From Anaerolineales bacterium (GTDB lineage: Bacteria; Chloroflexota; Anaerolineae; Anaerolineales; UBA4823): 12,873 nucleotides of DNA. Positions within the stretch are counted from its first letter, which is position 1; the number at the start of each line of letters is the position of its first letter. The stretch spans positions 1-12,873 of the forward strand of contig JAOAHK010000030.1 in NCBI GenBank assembly GCA_026415275.1. The letters are read 5' to 3'. Under the pieces are notes generated by a model, which saw only the letters and a list, made by a program, of their open reading frames with translations, was not told the DNA's origin and made no database searches. Position numbers and translations under genes: made by a program. Below, in pieces: positions 1 through 12,723 of this stretch.

Positions 1-629
1 GTATACGTGCCGCTGGTCAAATTTCCAAAAGTCAGTGTGCCGGCATTGCTACCACTACCGCTCGTTGAACCACTGCCAATTTGGTTGCCATTGTTGTTAT
101 AGAGGGTAAACGTCCAGCCGTTTAACCATCCCTCACCGCTATCTTTGCTTCCGTTGCCATTCTTGTCCTCGAATTTTCGGACGGTGATCTTGGAATACTT
201 GGCGTTGCCGAAATTTGCGGTCCAAGATTTTGATTGTTGTCCACCAGAGTATGTCCATTGCTGGCTGAGCGGGGTTGTGTTATACCAGCCGCTTTGCAGG
301 GTCTCTGTCAGGGTATAGATACCGGTGCTGCAACTGGTCGAAAAAACTGCTTTCCCTTGCGAATTTGTTGTTCCATTTGCCGTAGTATTATTGGGGCGGG
401 TTAGGGTAAAGGTCCAGCCACTCAGCGCACCCTCACCGCTTTCTTGAGAACCATTTCCATTCTTGTCTTCGAATTTGAAAGCGGTAATCGTAAGGGTACA
501 TCCAGTGTCTGTTTCAGCTTGAACGGGGCTTACCCACAGCGTTGCAAAGACAAACACCACAATCAGCGCAAACCCGATGATCTTCCGCAACGAGGGGCGC
601 CCGGAGAATAAAGAACTCTTTTCTCTCAT
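1..629 (-). CDS. Secreted repeat protein with SdrD B-like domains, 3' end cut off by the window edge
   Basis: Reading the minus strand from ATG at 629 gives 209 codons plus two bases with no stop, so the C-terminal part lies outside the window. Residues 1-38 form a classic Sec signal peptide: basic start (MREK...RKIIG), hydrophobic core (ALIVVFVFATLWV) and probable cleavage after SPVQA. The mature part holds two copies of a beta-sandwich-like repeat, each opening with KFEDKNGNGS, an acidic/Gly Ca-loop-like stretch, then GEG..L.GWTFTL (residues about 52-76 and 152-176), followed by Gly/Ser/Thr-rich sequence. This matches SdrD B-type domains known from secreted and surface proteins. The protein is probably an extracellular structural or adhesive component, which is inference. 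ATG at 632 is an in-frame alternative; I prefer 629 because it lies 7 bases from AGGAGG. A riboswitch-like leader precedes it. The domain class is fairly sure; the specific role is unknown. Confidence 0.85.
   Translation of the reverse strand, partial: MREKSSLFSGRPSLRKIIGFALIVVFVFATLWVSPVQAETDTGCTLTITAFKFEDKNGNGSQESGEGALSGWTFTLTRPNNTTANGTTNSQGKAVFSTSCSTGIYTLTETLQSGWYNTTPLSQQWTYSGGQQSKSWTANFGNAKYSKITVRKFEDKNGNGSKDSGEGWLNGWTFTLYNNNGNQIGSGSTSGSGSNAGTLTFGNLTSGTY
102..478 (-). repeat. Two diverged copies of an SdrD B-like domain-coding repeat
   Basis: The segments at about 402-478 and 102-178 both encode F-E-D-K-N-G-N-G-S, a short acidic linker, G-E-G, and G-W-T-F-T-L. They are about 300 bases apart and also similar at DNA level, with many silent differences. 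The copies are therefore old and under protein-level selection, not a recent duplication. The contig breaks within the second copy, right after residues SGTY; the first copy at the equivalent point continues as TGIYTLTETLQSGW. More copies may follow outside the window. Confidence 0.85.
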
Positions 630-636
630 CATTACA

Positions 637-642
637 CCTCCT
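637..642 (-). promoter_or_regulatory. Ribosome binding site AGGAGG that decides the start of the repeat-protein gene
   Basis: The minus strand reads AGGAGG followed by TGTA and then ATGATG. The spacing is 4 bases to the first ATG (632) and 7 to the second (629), so the second is the more likely start. Confidence 0.75.
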
Positions 643-661
643 GCATTATGAATAAAAATTA

Positions 662-765
662 TGGGACTCTCCTTTTCGGCAGCCAGACCGTCTGATCGTC
701 CCCTTAAGACTCTTGGCTTTGCGTCCCCGTCTCGCGGCGGGTTTGCTCTTTCGATTGTGGAGAAA
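662..765 (-). promoter_or_regulatory. Candidate cyclic di-GMP-I (GEMM) riboswitch in the leader of the repeat-protein gene
   Basis: On the minus strand, 748-740 reads GAGCAAACC, followed by a hairpin (stem CCCGCC/GACGGG with one C-A mismatch) closed by the GNRA tetraloop GCGA. Next comes GGGACGCAAAGCC (727-715) and, after a second arm, GGCTGCCGA (684-676). The order AAACC, GNRA hairpin, GACGCAAAGCC, GGnTGCCG is the hallmark core of the c-di-GMP-I aptamer. TCTCC before the core (763-759) and GGAGA after it (672-668) can pair as a closing stem. A GGGAC (702-698) could instead pair with GTCCC (667-663), which is followed by AUAAUUUUUAUU, a possible weak terminator platform. Less typical: the outer GGC of the first arm is AGC, and the second-arm tetraloop receptor is not a textbook match. 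Boundaries are approximate. Confidence 0.72.
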
Positions 766-793
766 TCAGAGAAAGATTATCTCATTAACGAAA

Positions 794-822
794 AGTATAG
801 CAGATTGTTTCTTAAAAATCAA
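794..822 (-). promoter_or_regulatory. Sigma-70-type promoter of the riboswitch/repeat-protein transcript
   Basis: On the minus strand, TTGATT (822-817), a 17-base spacer and TATACT (799-794) form a near-consensus promoter. The -10 is preceded by TGC, making an extended -10 (TGnTATACT). Transcription would start near 786-788, about 25 bases before the riboswitch core, so the whole aptamer is transcribed. Confidence 0.75.
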
Positions 823-895
823 TAGTATATTTATGCCAATTTTCATCTTTATTCTCTTTTTGCAGCTACTCTGAGAAGTCTCGCTCAGCCATTTG

Positions 896-977: not shown

Positions 978-3900
978 ATGAATAGACGGGTCGTTCTTGC
1001 AGATTATTTGGATGACTCCTCCCTGATGCGTCTGGCTGGGCCGACTTACTTTGAACGCGGTCGCTCGTACTTCTTTACAAATCGGGTGACTTTGAAGCAT
1101 GTTACAACCGATAGAGTAGAAGCGGTTGTCATGGGCACAGAACAATATCGGGCGCTCCTAAGAATGAAAGAGGAACAACTGGAGTATTCCTGTTCTTGCC
1201 CGGTCGGGACCAGTGGGTACTTTTGCAAGCACTTGGTCGCTGTTGCAATGCAAGCGCGCAGGCAAGTGACGATTCCGCCTGAAATTGCCTGGCAGCGCAA
1301 AATGGATTGGTTGCTCAAAAAGACAGAATGGGCAATCTCTCAATATTCCAGTTCGCCCCCCGCGCGCCGATATGTGATTGTTTTCGGTTTAGGTCGGGGA
1401 TATTCCTCCAATTGGGATGTCATCCCGTTGCGCCTTTATATCGGTAAGGCCTATCAAGAACCATTGGAACCGATCGATTGGAACAACCCCGACGAGTTAG
1501 ATAGCTTTTTGCAAAAGATACCCGCTCGAAAACCAGAGGTCGTGCGTTCTTTAGGAGAGATACAATATTGCCTGAATGTCGAAAGCGGTGCTTACCTCTT
1601 GGCAAGTGCGCTTTACGGCTACTTGTCAACCCGTAATCAGCTAGAATGGTTTTGGCGTGCGCCGCTGCTCCTTTACGAGCTCAGTTCCTCAGGAACGCTC
1701 GGCAAGCGCATTGCGTTGCATCCAACCATTGAGAAAGCTGTGATGGTGCTCAATAAGACCGATCAAGGTTCCGATTTGCATCTTGCCCTCACCCTAGGGG
1801 AAAAGTTAGAACCTTTGAGCAATAAAAAAGCCACGTTAATTCAAAATAAGCCCCCCGTACTTCTCATCGATCATACTTTGGTGCGCGTCTCGCAGCCTAG
1901 TGCATTTTTGCTGGAAAAGTTACTCGAAGAACCCAAAATCCACGTTCCAGCCGAGTATACCGATCAATTTATGAAGGTGTATTTCCCCAAGATTGCAGAA
2001 ACCATCTCCGTGATTGGGGAGGGTATTCAGTATCATGAGGAGGTTGAGCCGCAACCTCGCCTTTATCTATCGGAGAAAAACAGAGAACTCATTGTCGAAT
2101 TGCGTTTCAACTATTTAGGCAAGGAAGTGCCTTATGAACCAACCGAAGGCTACCTTGTCACCCCTCAAGCGGAACCCGGAGCTGCCACCTACATCCGCCG
2201 CAACCGCACTTTCGAAGATACGGTTGAAGCCGAATTAGTTGGCACTCGGTATGGCTTAAAACGGCTCTCTGTCAATGAACCCGGCCGCTACACCTTACGT
2301 GCTAAGGTGCACATATTGGATTTTTTGCTCAAATATCTTCCTTTATTAGCCAAAGATGGATTTGAAATCTTTGGCGAAGATCGCATCAAATCGGTACGCG
2401 TCAATCGCGCTCGACCTACACTCTCCATGCAAGTGTCTTCGGGGATTGATTGGTTTGATCTAGCGCTCCACGTAAAATTTGGTGACCACACAGCGGACTG
2501 GAAGGAAGTGCGCACAGCGATCCTAAAAGGACACTCTTATGTCAAACTATCCGATGGATCGATTGGGCAAATTCCAGAAGACTGGATTAAGCGCTTCAAG
2601 AAGGTTTTTGCGCTCGGAAAAGCCACCGAACGAGGATTAGAGCTCAGCGAGGCGCAACTGCCTCTCGTTGATATCCTCTTGGACGAGGCAGAACTGCACA
2701 GCAACTTTGCAGAGTTCGAACAGCGCCGCAGACGCCTGCGCGAATTCGAGCAGATCGAACCCCAGCCCCTGCCACAAGGCTTTCGCGGCGAACTGCGTCC
2801 CTATCAGAAAGCAGGATATGATTGGCTACATTTTTTGTATCGCTTTAAATTGGGCGGCTGTTTGGCAGATGATATGGGGCTCGGAAAAACGGTTCAGGTG
2901 TTGGCGTTTTTGCAGTCCTTGAAAGAAACCCAGAAACCTGAGGCAGCTCACCTTTTGGTTGTGCCCAAATCCCTGTTGATCAACTGGCAGCGGGAAGCCG
3001 AACGATTCACCCCCGAGTTACGCATGTTCGATTACAGCACAGCCGATCGCCCCAAAGATCTTCGAGTTTTTGATGAAGCGGACGTTGTTTTGACCACGTA
3101 CGGGATCGTTTTGCGCGATGTGGATAAATTGCGCAAATATCATTTTGACATTGTGATTTTAGACGAATCGCAAGCAGTTAAGAACCCCCTAGCCCAAAGT
3201 GCCAAAGCCGTCCGCCTGCTGAATTGCAATCATCGTCTGGTGATGACGGGAACACCAATTGAAAATAACACTTTTGAGCTTTGGTCTCAGTTTGCTTTTC
3301 TGCAACCCGGTCTGTTGGGCAGCTTGGAGACATTTCGTAACGAATTTGCCAACCCCATCGAAAGCGAAGGCGACGCAGAGACGGCAGAGACTTTGCGCAA
3401 ATTGGTGCATCCCTTTATCTTAAGGCGCACCAAAGCCCAGGTTGCTCCCGAATTGCCGCCGCGCGAAGAGCGCATTGTCTATACAGAGATGAGCGCTGAA
3501 CAAGAAAAGTTTTATCGCAAGATGCGCGATTACTATCGGGAGCTGTTACTCGGAACGATCGAGCCCGAATTCACCCCGGATCAGCGCATGAGAATTCTGG
3601 AAGGTCTGCTCCGCCTGCGTCAGATCAGTATCCATCCGGCATTGGTCGATGTCAATTTTCATGGCGAAGCGCCGAAGTTCACCTGGCTGCTTGAAACGCT
3701 GGAAATCTTGCAGCAAGAGGGACATAAGGCTCTGATCTTTTCTCAATTTGTCGAAGCGCTTCATCTCATCCGCCGCGAATTAGATAGCCGCTCTGTACCC
3801 TATGTCTACTTAGATGGTCAAACCCGCAATCGCCAGAGTCAAGTGGATACCTTTCAGAACGATCCAAATCTGCCATTTTTCTTAATCAGCCTAAGAGCTG

Positions 3901-4175
3901 GTGGAGTGGGGCTAAACCTGACCGCAGCGGATTACGTTATCCACCTCGACCCATGGTGGAACCCGGCGGTTGAACGCCAAGCCGCCGACCGAACTCATCG
4001 CATCGGGCAAGATAAGCCAGTTTTTATCTACAAGGTTATTGTGCGCAACACCGTTGAGGAGAAAATCTTGCTGCTGCAGGAGAAAAAGCGGCAATTGGTG
4101 GATCAAATTATCCATGCTGACGGAAGTGTTTTCAAATCTCTGACCCGAGAAGATTTGGAAGTGTTGTTTAGTTGA
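978..4175 (+). CDS. SWIM zinc-finger SNF2-family helicase-like ATPase
   Basis: This 1065-residue protein is a Swi2/Snf2 (superfamily 2) ATP-driven DNA translocase of the bacterial SWIM-containing kind. A SWIM zinc site CxC...CxH is formed by C72, C74, C83 and H85. The ATPase core begins with LRPYQ (606-610), then DDMGLGKT (631-638, Walker A), DESQ (729-732, motif II in place of DEAH), TGTPIENN (757-764, motif III), and in the second RecA lobe AGGVGLNLT (from about 974), DPWWNP (991-996) and RTHRIGQ (1005-1011). Every motif needed for ATP hydrolysis is present. Residues about 100-590 show no motif I can name; bacterial family members carry a lineage-specific accessory region there. Substrate and role (repair, transcription recycling or chromosome remodelling) are unknown for this group. 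The start is supported by a family-like N-terminus, not by its ribosome site. The S9 peptidase gene follows after 38 bases. Confidence 0.95.
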
Positions 4176-9074: not shown

Positions 9075-10013
9075 ATGATTGAAACTGAAGACCTGAGCAA
9101 AGCCTTCAAAGATTTTTGGGCGGTCACCGGGGTCACCTTGCGTGTGGAGGCCGGCCAGGTGTTGGCTTTGCTCGGTCCAAACGGCGCTGGCAAGACGACT
9201 ACCGTGCGCATGTTGACCACTATTTTGCGCCCAACCCGCGGTTCGGCGCGTGTAGCCGGTTACGACATTCTGACTCACCCAGACGAAGTGCGTGCCGCAG
9301 TGGGAGTACTCACCGAAGGACATGGTCTCTATCCCTTTATGTCGGCTGAGGAGGATCTCGATTTTTTTGCGCGTGCCTATCGTCTGCTGCCCGGCGAAAG
9401 AAAAAAACGCATCGAAGAGCTGTTGGAGTTCTTTGGGTTGGCAGAAGTGCGGCGCAGGCAAATTGGACAGTTTTCCAAAGGGATGCGCCAAAAGTTAGCC
9501 CTTGCGCGCGCCTTGCTACACAAACCGCGGGTTCTTCTCTTGGATGAACCAACCTCGGCGATGGATCCCGCTAGCGCTCGCTTGGTGCGTGATGCGATTC
9601 GGGAATTGCGCTCGAAGGAGCGCACCATCATCGTTTGTACCCACAATTTGAGCGAAGCTGAAGAAATTGCCGACCAGATCGCCATCATCAACCACGGTCG
9701 AATCGTCCTTAAGGGTTCCCCCTTGGAATTAAAATTCGCTTTACAAGATCAAGCGCGTTTTCGCATTCGTTTTGCCGCTCCCCTCAATGGTCATCCACTT
9801 TCTCTAGTCGAAGGTGCCAAGTGGTTAGGTCAAGGGAAAGATTGGTTGGAATACCAAACTGCGCAACCTGAAACAGTTAACCCATTGCTCATTCAATCGC
9901 TCACCCGACAAGGTTTACCCATTCTAACCATCGAAGAGCAGGTTTGCAGTTTAGAAGAGGTGTATTTACACGCCGTTGAAGGTAAATTGAACAATGTCTA
10001 TCAAACAGCTTAG
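9075..10013 (+). CDS. ABC transporter ATP-binding protein, NatA/CcmA-like exporter type
   Basis: The 312-residue cytoplasmic ATPase would power the ABC-2 permease encoded next to it. It has Walker A GPNGAGKT (34-41), a signature loop FSKGMRQ (133-139) in place of LSGGQ, Walker B LLLDEP with D157 and catalytic E158, and the switch His H190 in CTHNLSEAEE. The Q-loop Gln is replaced: the segment reads GVLTEGHGLYPF with E81 at the usual Gln position, as seen in part of the NatA-like group. Residues after about 230 form a C-terminal extension typical of ABC-2 ATPases. The substrate is unknown. The start is supported by a family-like N-terminus and by the promoter ending 7 bases upstream, which implies a leaderless transcript. 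The last 20 bases overlap the permease gene. Confidence 0.94.
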   Translation: MIETEDLSKAFKDFWAVTGVTLRVEAGQVLALLGPNGAGKTTTVRMLTTILRPTRGSARVAGYDILTHPDEVRAAVGVLTEGHGLYPFMSAEEDLDFFARAYRLLPGERKKRIEELLEFFGLAEVRRRQIGQFSKGMRQKLALARALLHKPRVLLLDEPTSAMDPASARLVRDAIRELRSKERTIIVCTHNLSEAEEIADQIAIINHGRIVLKGSPLELKFALQDQARFRIRFAAPLNGHPLSLVEGAKWLGQGKDWLEYQTAQPETVNPLLIQSLTRQGLPILTIEEQVCSLEEVYLHAVEGKLNNVYQTA

Positions 10014-11430
10014 AGATTATTTGGCGGGAATTTTATTGGTTGCAGGACGGGAAGTGCGAGAGCATTTTCGGGATTGGCGGATTATTGTGCCCATTATCAT
10101 CCTCACTCTGTTTTTTCCGGTTCTGATGAATTACACCGCCAACCGCTTGGTCAATTTCGTGCAGCAATATGATGCCCCGATTATCGGGGAACGACTCATT
10201 CCCTTTCTGCTGATGGTTGTGGGGTTTTTCCCCATGTCAATCTCTCTGGTCATTGCCCTAGAGAGCTTTGTGGGAGAGAAAGAGCGGCTCACCATTGAAC
10301 CCTTGCTCTGCACCCCGTTATCCGATCGGCAATTGTATTTCGGCAAATTGCTCGCTTCGCTTACCCCCCCTCTTCTATCGAGCTATCTTGGCACCACAGT
10401 TTATCTTTTCGGCGTCATCTATAAAGTTGGTTGGCGCGCCGATCCGATGTTTATCATCCAAATCTTTGTTCTAGCGACCATGCAAGCCTTGGTCATGGTC
10501 AGCGGCGCCGTGGTCATCTCCTCTCAAACCACTTCGGTGCGGGCGGCAAATCTACTAGCCTCATTTATCATCATTCCGATTGCAATGCTTTTACAAGCCG
10601 AAAGTGCATTGATGTTCTGGGGACGCTACACCGCTCTATGGTGGGTTGCAGTCGGTTTGTTTATCATTGCTGGCTTGCTCATCCGTTCCGGTTTGGCGCA
10701 ATTTCGGCGCGAAGAACTCCTTGAGCGGGAAATGGATGCCCTAAACTTGCGCTGGATCGGGCGCACGTTTTGGCGATTTTTCAAAGGCGAAGGGAGTTCT
10801 GTCTGGAACTGGTGGCGAACAGAGGTGCTGCTCAGCACACGCAAGGCGCTGTTGCCCAGCGGCTTATCCGTTTTGGTGTTGTTCTTCGGCGGATTGGTTG
10901 GCTTTTCACAAGCGAAGGAATTTGTTTTGCCAGCCGAATACATCCAAAAATATTGGAACAGCGGCGAGCTGGTCAACCGTTTGGCAGGATTACAATTGCT
11001 GCCCTCCTATACAGCCGGAGTGGTGTGGTTTCAAAATTTGCGGGCGATTTTCTTGGCCTCTTTGGGTGGGTTCTTCACCTTTGGCGTTTTGGGTATGTTG
11101 GTGCTCATGCTTCCCTTTGCCCTGATCGGTTACTTTATGGCAAGCCTGATTCAAGTTGGAATTTCACCCTACACCTTTATCGGTGCTTTTATCCTGCCTC
11201 ACGCCATCTTTGAGGTGCCGGCGATCTTATTGTCTGGCGGTGCAATTTTGCGGATGGGTGCTTCCTTTGCTGCACCCGCGCGCGGACAAACCGTGGGCGA
11301 AGCATGGCTAAAAGCCTTGTCAGATTGGGCGAAGGTCATGGTTGGGCTAGTAATGCCCCTCCTGCTCGCTGCAGCACTGATTGAGATGTTAATCACCCCA
11401 CGCCTAGCGTTGTGGTTGATCAGCCGCTAA
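9994..11430 (+). CDS. ABC-2 type permease fused to a SpoIIM-like membrane domain
   Basis: The 478-residue membrane protein appears to be two modules. Residues 1 to about 240 are an ABC-2 permease: a cytoplasmic start REVREHFRDWRIIVP, a first helix, the coupling motif ESFVGEKERLTIEPLL (90-105) with PLSD...GKLLAS, and further helices to about 230. After a charged linker (about 235-270), the rest matches the SpoIIM/DUF95 family: RKALLPSGLSVLVLFFGG, FQNLRAIFLASLGGFFTFG (346-364), LPHAIFEVPAILL (401-413) and PLLLAAALIEMLITPRL near the end. SpoIIM family proteins are membrane proteins known from sporulating Bacillus but widespread in non-sporulators. The overlap with the ATPase gene and the weak GAAGG 11 bases upstream suggest coupled translation. 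The transported substrate is unknown. I am fairly sure of both modules by motif recognition alone. Confidence 0.85.
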   Translation: MSIKQLRDYLAGILLVAGREVREHFRDWRIIVPIIILTLFFPVLMNYTANRLVNFVQQYDAPIIGERLIPFLLMVVGFFPMSISLVIALESFVGEKERLTIEPLLCTPLSDRQLYFGKLLASLTPPLLSSYLGTTVYLFGVIYKVGWRADPMFIIQIFVLATMQALVMVSGAVVISSQTTSVRAANLLASFIIIPIAMLLQAESALMFWGRYTALWWVAVGLFIIAGLLIRSGLAQFRREELLEREMDALNLRWIGRTFWRFFKGEGSSVWNWWRTEVLLSTRKALLPSGLSVLVLFFGGLVGFSQAKEFVLPAEYIQKYWNSGELVNRLAGLQLLPSYTAGVVWFQNLRAIFLASLGGFFTFGVLGMLVLMLPFALIGYFMASLIQVGISPYTFIGAFILPHAIFEVPAILLSGGAILRMGASFAAPARGQTVGEAWLKALSDWAKVMVGLVMPLLLAAALIEMLITPRLALWLISR

Positions 11431-12219: not shown

Positions 12220-12723
12220 TTACCACCCTTCCATAAAGGGCAACCATTCTTCGTTGTTTGTCAAATGGCGCGCAAACAGATAAGTTGCGTTGGCTGGCGG
12301 CGCCTTGGGCGGACGCAGCAAGCGCATGTTTACCTGTTCGGGCGTGTGACTTCCTTTACGGTGGTTACAAGCCGGACACGCAGCAACCAGATTCTCCCAA
12401 GCGTATTGTCCGCCATAGCGGCGCGGGATGACATGATCAACAGTCAGATAGGGAGAACGCTGCCCACAATATTGGCAGGTGTAATCATCGCGGCGCAGGA
12501 TTTCTTTTTTCGTCAGGCGCACTGTTGGGCGGGGACGTTTGACCATTTGCTCAAGACGAATGACCGACGGGCGTGGATAGCAGCGATTGACCGTGTGAAT
12601 TTCGCCTCGGCCATTCATGACCAAAGTAGCTTTGCCGCTGATCACCAGCATGATGGCTCGCCGCGTCGTGCAGACATTGATCGGCTCAAAGTTGGCATTC
12701 AGAACCAGAACCGGCTCGTGCAT
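12220..12723 (-). CDS. HNH endonuclease family protein
   Basis: The 167-residue protein carries one HNH nuclease domain in its second half. Zinc-ribbon cysteines are C83 and C86 (CQYCG) with C116 and C119 (CPACN). Between them are D96-H97 in LTVDHVIPRRYGG and N111 in WENLVAACP, followed by H121 in NHRKG, so the metal-dependent nuclease site is complete. The N-terminal half, opening VLVLNANFEPINV, is a conserved feature of a widespread, poorly characterised chromosomal HNH group found in Chloroflexota, cyanobacteria and others. It is not linked here to any methyltransferase, so restriction is not supported. The start ATG at 12723 has AGGAG (12734-12730) six bases upstream and a TGCTATAAT promoter. 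The gene converges on the MBL gene. DNA target and biological role are unknown. Confidence 0.92.
   Translation of the reverse strand: MHEPVLVLNANFEPINVCTTRRAIMLVISGKATLVMNGRGEIHTVNRCYPRPSVIRLEQMVKRPRPTVRLTKKEILRRDDYTCQYCGQRSPYLTVDHVIPRRYGGQYAWENLVAACPACNHRKGSHTPEQVNMRLLRPPKAPPANATYLFARHLTNNEEWLPFMEGW

Follow-up and report, generated by a model that had tools for sequence, protein, structure and literature searches.

The window analysed here, a stretch of 12,873 nucleotides, is the whole of contig C234 of an Anaerolineales draft genome (2.7 Mb in 480 contigs, 67% complete). One end of it is occupied by a minus-strand gene (1..632) for a secreted SdrD_B-repeat protein, which is cut by the contig end and so lacks its C-terminus; 210 residues are present, counted from the ATG at 632. 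The start codon is either this ATG or the one at 629, the latter fitting the starts of orthologous genes better and lying 7 nt from the Shine-Dalgarno (SD) sequence. The protein has a signal peptide, as judged by eye, and matches PF17210 (SdrD_B; 50.1 bits, cut-off 29.7), with two such stretches in the 210 residues, and PF17802 (SpaA; 44.1 bits, cut-off 23.1). Divergent from it, on the plus strand at 978-4175, is a gene for an SNF2-family helicase with a SWIM zinc finger; tblastn of this SNF2 protein against nine stretches around orthologues of the repeat protein gene gave no match. Elsewhere in the window are a plus-strand gene (9994-11430) for a membrane protein matching the SpoIIM and ABC-2 transporter families, an open reading frame before it (9075-10013) that appears by eye to be ABC ATPase-like, and a minus-strand gene (12220-12723) for an HNH endonuclease-domain protein (PF01844, PF14279).

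The initial annotation had described a promoter, a GEMM-like aptamer, a T-rich stretch, AGGAGG and a signal-peptide gene following each other on one strand, and all of these elements were found on the minus strand. The promoter (794..822) consists of a -35 element, TTGATT (822-817), a 17-nt spacer and a -10 element, TATACT (799-794), preceded by TG. It scored 9 of 12 in a promoter consensus scan, a score that shuffled sequences reach at 0.8 sites on average, so that the scan by itself is no proof; five orthologous leaders carry, by eye, TTGNNN, a spacer of 16-17 nt and TATNNT in the same place. Downstream follow a 5' hairpin (769..783), which appears in the consensus fold and is weak in the window (four pairs), and the 5' strand of an extension of P1, UUCUCC (759..764). 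The aptamer itself occupies 675..757 and is followed by the 3' strand of the P1 extension, GGAGAG (667..672), a linker with a T-rich stretch in which terminator scans found no intrinsic terminator (643..666), and the SD sequence AGGAGG (637..642), which is also present in the five orthologous leaders.

The covariance model RF01051 (c-di-GMP-I) matches the minus strand at 675-757 with 61.5 bits (cut-off 35; E 1.4e-11 in a search of the organism's whole genome), bearing out the c-di-GMP-I assignment of the initial annotation at the level of family membership, whereas none of 14 control genomes had an RF01051 match. RF03167 (c-di-GMP-I-GGC) matches at 674-756 with 60.5 bits (cut-off 59; E 1.7e-12 in a search of the window). 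The aptamer core contains AAACC, a GCGA tetraloop, GGGACGCAAAGCC and GGCTGCCG. On its own, the window leader folds less stably than the majority of its shuffles (z 1.46), and the aptamer by itself has average stability (z 0.56).

Leaders preceding orthologous genes were found in five genomes of the same genus (G020, G021, G022, G023 and G024), and all five keep the layout. Loss of the GNRA hairpin or of the GNCGCAAAGCC core from such leaders had been named beforehand as a sign against a riboswitch; both are retained in all five. The four aligned orthologous proteins are 91% (G022), 79% (G020), 71% (G021) and 70% (G024) identical to the window protein, and four named records, metagenome-assembled genomes (MAGs) labelled Anaerolineales or Anaerolineae, carry orthologues with 66-91% identity in the best segment. 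By eye, the four complete orthologues (686-695 aa) carry a signal peptide and a GEVEDYYW region, and at the C-terminus a hydrophobic segment with a tail rich in Arg; four SdrD_B stretches were found in each of the two orthologues scanned. RNAalifold on the six leaders (window plus five orthologous) recovered the 5' hairpin, the extended P1, P2 and P3, and the consensus fold and pair counts show the three-way junction P1/P2/P3 to be kept in the relatives. In this consensus structure 93.1% of cells are paired (88.9% in the P1 extension) and seven pairs are changed on both sides. None of 500 column shuffles reached the observed paired share, number of both-side changes or covariation score, and 51 of 500 reached the observed number of further pair types. 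Five of the covarying pairs lie in the 5' hairpin, where both partners of 5 of the 7 pairs have changed in one or more of the six leaders, and one each in the P1 extension and P3; the covariation rests mainly on the 5' hairpin because most P2 and P3 pairs are invariant. The window feature is thus a genuine cyclic-dinucleotide riboswitch of the GEMM-I family, upstream of a secreted repeat protein gene.

The window aptamer departs from the c-di-GMP form at one ligand-contact base. At position 747 (minus strand), directly before P2, it has A where the Vc2 riboswitch has G20, the selectivity base, as mapped through two studies (PMC6274999, PMC6456294). The equivalent of Vc2 A47 is an A at 720, a base that stacks between the ligand bases according to PMC9049102. 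The equivalent of Vc2 C92, which pairs with one ligand base, is a C at 679, an assignment made by analogy to G74-C75 in J1/3 of cGAMP riboswitch RNA. Of the G20/A47/C92 set of the c-di-GMP form, A47 and C92 are therefore present and G20 is absent, giving A20/A47/C92, the cGAMP-type set. On that account the aptamer is assigned to the GEMM-I clan and treated as a candidate c-di-GMP sensor. In the cGAMP riboswitch, A14 is the last base of J1/2 and immediately precedes P2 (C15-G40), and J2/3 is A41 (PMC6274999). For Gmet_0970, PMC6456294 reports that A20G switches the ligand from cGAMP to c-di-GMP. For Cd1, the equivalent changes G11A and G11C are described as still binding c-di-GMP, with the position presented as a selectivity factor, not a hard filter (PMC9262584), and in simulations G20 and C92 mutants bind c-di-GMP more weakly (PMC9049102).

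All five orthologous leaders have G20, as do the three other GEMM-I aptamers of the organism's own genome. The leader of G022 (L048), compared over window positions 674-830, has G20; no base differs between it and the window leader over the stretch that begins with P2 and ends with GGAGA, whereas the promoter regions and 5' hairpins of the two are strongly divergent. Identity in the 3' part together with divergence in the 5' part indicates that the leader halves differ in evolutionary rate or in history. Across the family, at least 30 of 38 genomes have GEMM-I matches, at least 132 places in total; these counts are lower bounds, 85 first-look candidates having been scored per genome where more existed. 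A census of base 20 in 131 of these places (G026:C1:2892960, below the family cut-off, was omitted, and G030:C64 was included although its A47 could not be read) gave G in 118, A in 10 and C in 3. In a class-level sample of 298 genomes, the A20 pattern gave 12 raw matches in 11 genomes and the G20 pattern 90 in 45, some of these being chance matches with no P2 hairpin by eye (G166 and G199 for A20, and some G20). Seven of the ten A20 aptamers in the family stand in tandem arrays, compared with 39 of 118 with G20 (Fisher p 0.035, a weak result given that the sequences are related). A20 aptamers occur in such arrays at G009:C15, G010:C52, G009:C90, G007:C5 and G002:C398 in the family and at G317:C4, G270:C3 and G174:C76 in the class; the partner is mostly a G20 aptamer and sometimes a further A20. 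This arrangement could be explained by two-signal logic or by decay.

Which dinucleotide the cell makes was approached through its synthases. Hypr synthases have S or T where c-di-GMP synthases have D, according to PMC6456294 and PMC9140294. All 17 GGDEF matches of the organism's own genome were read; two are cut before the selectivity residue, and among the 15 in which it is readable, 14 have D and one is a degenerate domain without D, leaving no S or T in the 15 (in a genome 67% complete). We also read 25 of 61 matches in five other genomes of the genus and 73 of 80 in six genomes with A20 aptamers, the seven omitted there all scoring under 40 bits. Across the 121 aligned domains from these 12 genomes, in which some own-genome loci are counted twice, 118 were readable and comprised 114 D, 2 N, 1 G and 1 Q; S or T was found in none of the 118. 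Six of the 12 are the other genomes with A20 aptamers. SMODS nucleotidyltransferases were found in none of the six genus genomes; neither a Hypr nor a CD-NTase partner turned up in these searches. Because only c-di-GMP-type synthases were seen in the organism's own genome, c-di-GMP, sensed with weakened selectivity, appears from the gene content to be a likelier cellular ligand than cGAMP; a cGAMP sensor keeps some probability because the assembly lacks roughly one third of the genome.

The three other GEMM-I aptamers of the genome all precede genes that look secreted, by eye. One, on contig C184 (L127, 3177-3260, plus strand), is a G20 aptamer before a secreted protein, its 3' end overlapped by a terminator. 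The other two form a tandem G20 pair before a single gene for a secreted protein on contig C238 (L128, 2866-2956 and 3044-3133, plus strand), with a separate terminator-like hairpin after the second aptamer. In two Coriobacteriia records, an aptamer of the c-di-GMP-II-GAG family (RF03169) lies directly upstream of distant SdrD_B homologues (L188, 1949-2035, and L189, 2015-2102, both plus strand; 44.9 and 56.2 bits, cut-off 40), so that an unrelated c-di-GMP aptamer class also precedes this type of surface protein.

Terminators overlapping the aptamer were found in 27 of the 131 family leaders, compared with a mean of 3.4 when the downstream sequence was shuffled. In these sister leaders, the C184 leader among them, the 5' arm of the terminator begins within the aptamer 3' end. 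Ligand binding should therefore block termination in these leaders, and the C184 leader is laid out like an antiterminating ON switch. A terminator-type platform was rejected for the window leader, unlike its sister leaders, since scans found no intrinsic terminator on its coding strand; none was found in any of the six leaders of the orthologous set. The pyrimidine strand 759-764 pairs with the GGAG after the aptamer, forming the P1 extension, and could alternatively pair with the SD site. In predicted folds of the window leader with 18 coding bases included, the P1 extension went from 0.05 in the free to 0.82 in the bound state, and the SD site was open with and without the folded aptamer (exposure 0.83 and 0.84); with a longer coding stretch, exposure fell from 0.85 to 0.22 in the bound state, pointing to OFF. 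Free and bound folds of the six leaders showed no consistent change in SD exposure, which varied with the coding sequence included. SD sequestration as a deduction from folding was rejected because exposure differs between orthologues and with coding length. Pseudoknot pairing of the P3-loop GGGG with the linker is unsupported, being matched by 115 of 500 shuffles. Our best guess is that the leader may exert translational ON control.

We consider it fairly probable that the leader of the SdrD_B gene is a cis-acting GEMM-I riboswitch for which c-di-GMP is still the likelier ligand and which would turn translation on. The ligand, a 3',3'-cyclic dinucleotide, would sit where P1, P2 and P3 meet; A47 would stack between the bases of the ligand, one of which would pair with C92, and binding would stabilize P1 and its CUCC/GGAG extension. 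With A20 instead of G20, the aptamer probably tells c-di-GMP and 3',3'-cGAMP apart less well, or with a shifted preference. At higher ligand levels P1 would be folded and strand 759-764 held off the SD, with translation on and more surface protein made. This explanation draws on the RF01051 score, its absence from the control genomes, the consensus fold of the six leaders and a downstream protein above both the SdrD_B and SpaA cut-offs, and, for the ligand, on the D in 14 of 15 own GGDEF domains and on the binding retained by Cd1 after the equivalent change (PMC9262584). Its ON polarity is supported by the sister leaders, including that on C184, in which a terminator overlaps the aptamer 3' strand. 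Counting against it are the cGAMP-type base A20, since A20G retunes Gmet_0970 (PMC6456294), and a window leader no more stable than its shuffles; against a translational platform in particular, the window SD is predicted to be open in both states and the six leaders disagree. RNA-level switching of the surface protein gene is plausible. The initial claim that c-di-GMP controls this gene thus holds for the riboswitch family, the SdrD_B gene and the conserved leaders, and is weakened by A20 as regards c-di-GMP sensing.

The same base gives rise to two other readings. The leader might be a cGAMP-selective riboswitch of the GEMM-Ib type, in which A20 has retuned the pocket and cGAMP comes from an unrecognized synthase or from a Hypr GGDEF protein encoded in the third of the genome that the assembly lacks. 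The full A20/A47/C92 set is present, base 20 sets ligand choice in Gmet_0970 (PMC6456294), the genome is only 67% complete, and A20 recurs (10 of 131 aptamers in the family; 12 raw matches spread over 11 of the 298 genomes in the class sample). We nevertheless hold this to be unlikely, as G20 is found in five of five orthologues, S or T in none of the 118 readable GGDEF domains of 12 genomes and SMODS proteins in none of the six genus genomes. A decaying or weakened aptamer would fit the occurrence of A20 in the window and not in the five orthologues, one of which (G022) has G20 followed by the same sequence as the window from P2 to the end of GGAGA. On this reading G20A would be a recent change of the loss type, or an error of one base in the draft contig, and the leader would be unresponsive to physiological amounts of ligand or would behave as its orthologues do. 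Non-G20 aptamers often stand in tandem with other aptamers (7 of 10 for A20), as decay would allow; all other core elements of the 61.5-bit window aptamer are intact, however, and the equivalent change in Cd1 retained c-di-GMP binding (PMC9262584), and we regard decay as quite improbable.

RF03167 is the clan winner for the window in cmscan, and the orthologous leaders of the four named records also win as RF03167, with 65.1 to 72.0 bits, which would suit a c-di-GMP-I-GGC variant with that class's own, possibly different, ligand. The window shares with RF03167 a short P3 and a score just over the cut-off. The "GGC" of the name we take to be the bases at positions 20, 47 and 92; the RF03167 consensus has G at positions 20 and 47, and in the alignment the window has A at both (GACGCA, with A47, compared with GACGCG, with G47). 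The RF03167 label is therefore unfit for this pocket, and with RF01051 itself scoring 61.5 bits we think membership of the GGC class very unlikely. A broader conjecture, to which we give little credence, is that Anaerolineae GEMM-I aptamers have been retuned sporadically by G20A, often in tandem arrays, and that 3',3'-cGAMP, or a mixture of dinucleotides, is what some of the leaders sense in cells with no recognized cGAMP synthase. If this were true, the window would be a solo case in which a second signal governs a surface repeat protein, and a cGAMP source in Chloroflexota would still await discovery.

The riboswitch preferred here, a GEMM-I aptamer with c-di-GMP as its likelier ligand, is largely ordinary, GEMM-I before a surface repeat protein being already known; what is notable is one ligand-contact base, and the ligand cannot be read from the Rfam label (c-di-GMP-I or GGC) by itself. 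Sharing one sequence from the beginning of P2 to the end of GGAGA and differing 5' of P2, the leaders of the window (A20) and of its G022 orthologue (G20) make up a naturally occurring pair in which the influence of base 20 on selectivity could be measured. Among the open-licence papers that the literature searches listed, no title or opening of an abstract described a Chloroflexi or Anaerolineae c-di-GMP riboswitch before an SdrD-type gene.

In common with RF01051 riboswitches such as Vc2 of Vibrio cholerae, the window aptamer scores over the family cut-off and has A47, C92, a GNRA-type P2 loop and a P3 closed by GCC/GGC; it differs in having A instead of G at position 20, a short P3 and an extended P1 before the SD, with no terminator found. 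With the Geobacter cGAMP riboswitches (GEMM-Ib; PMC6456294, PMC6274999, PMC8835794) it shares A at the selectivity position, an A in J2/3 and a C in J1/3, whereas here no Hypr GGDEF was seen, the orthologous leaders have G20 and the gene encodes a repeat surface protein. A close parallel is found in the Bacillus cereus group, where the GEMM-I riboswitch Bc2 switches on cbpA, the gene for a Cna_B-repeat adhesin known as CbpA in Bacillus thuringiensis (PMC7423583). Bc2 switches transcription; in the window leader no terminator was found. CbpA has 17 Cna_B repeats, a collagen-binding A-region and an LPXTG anchor, whereas the orthologues of the window gene are 686-695 aa long with SdrD_B repeats, and no A-region or LPXTG was noticed by eye. 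Both are riboswitches of the c-di-GMP-I (GEMM-I) family before a secreted surface protein with B-type repeats. In this locus a repeat protein of the surface, from an uncultured Chloroflexota group, is under a cyclic-dinucleotide riboswitch, like CbpA of Bacillus.
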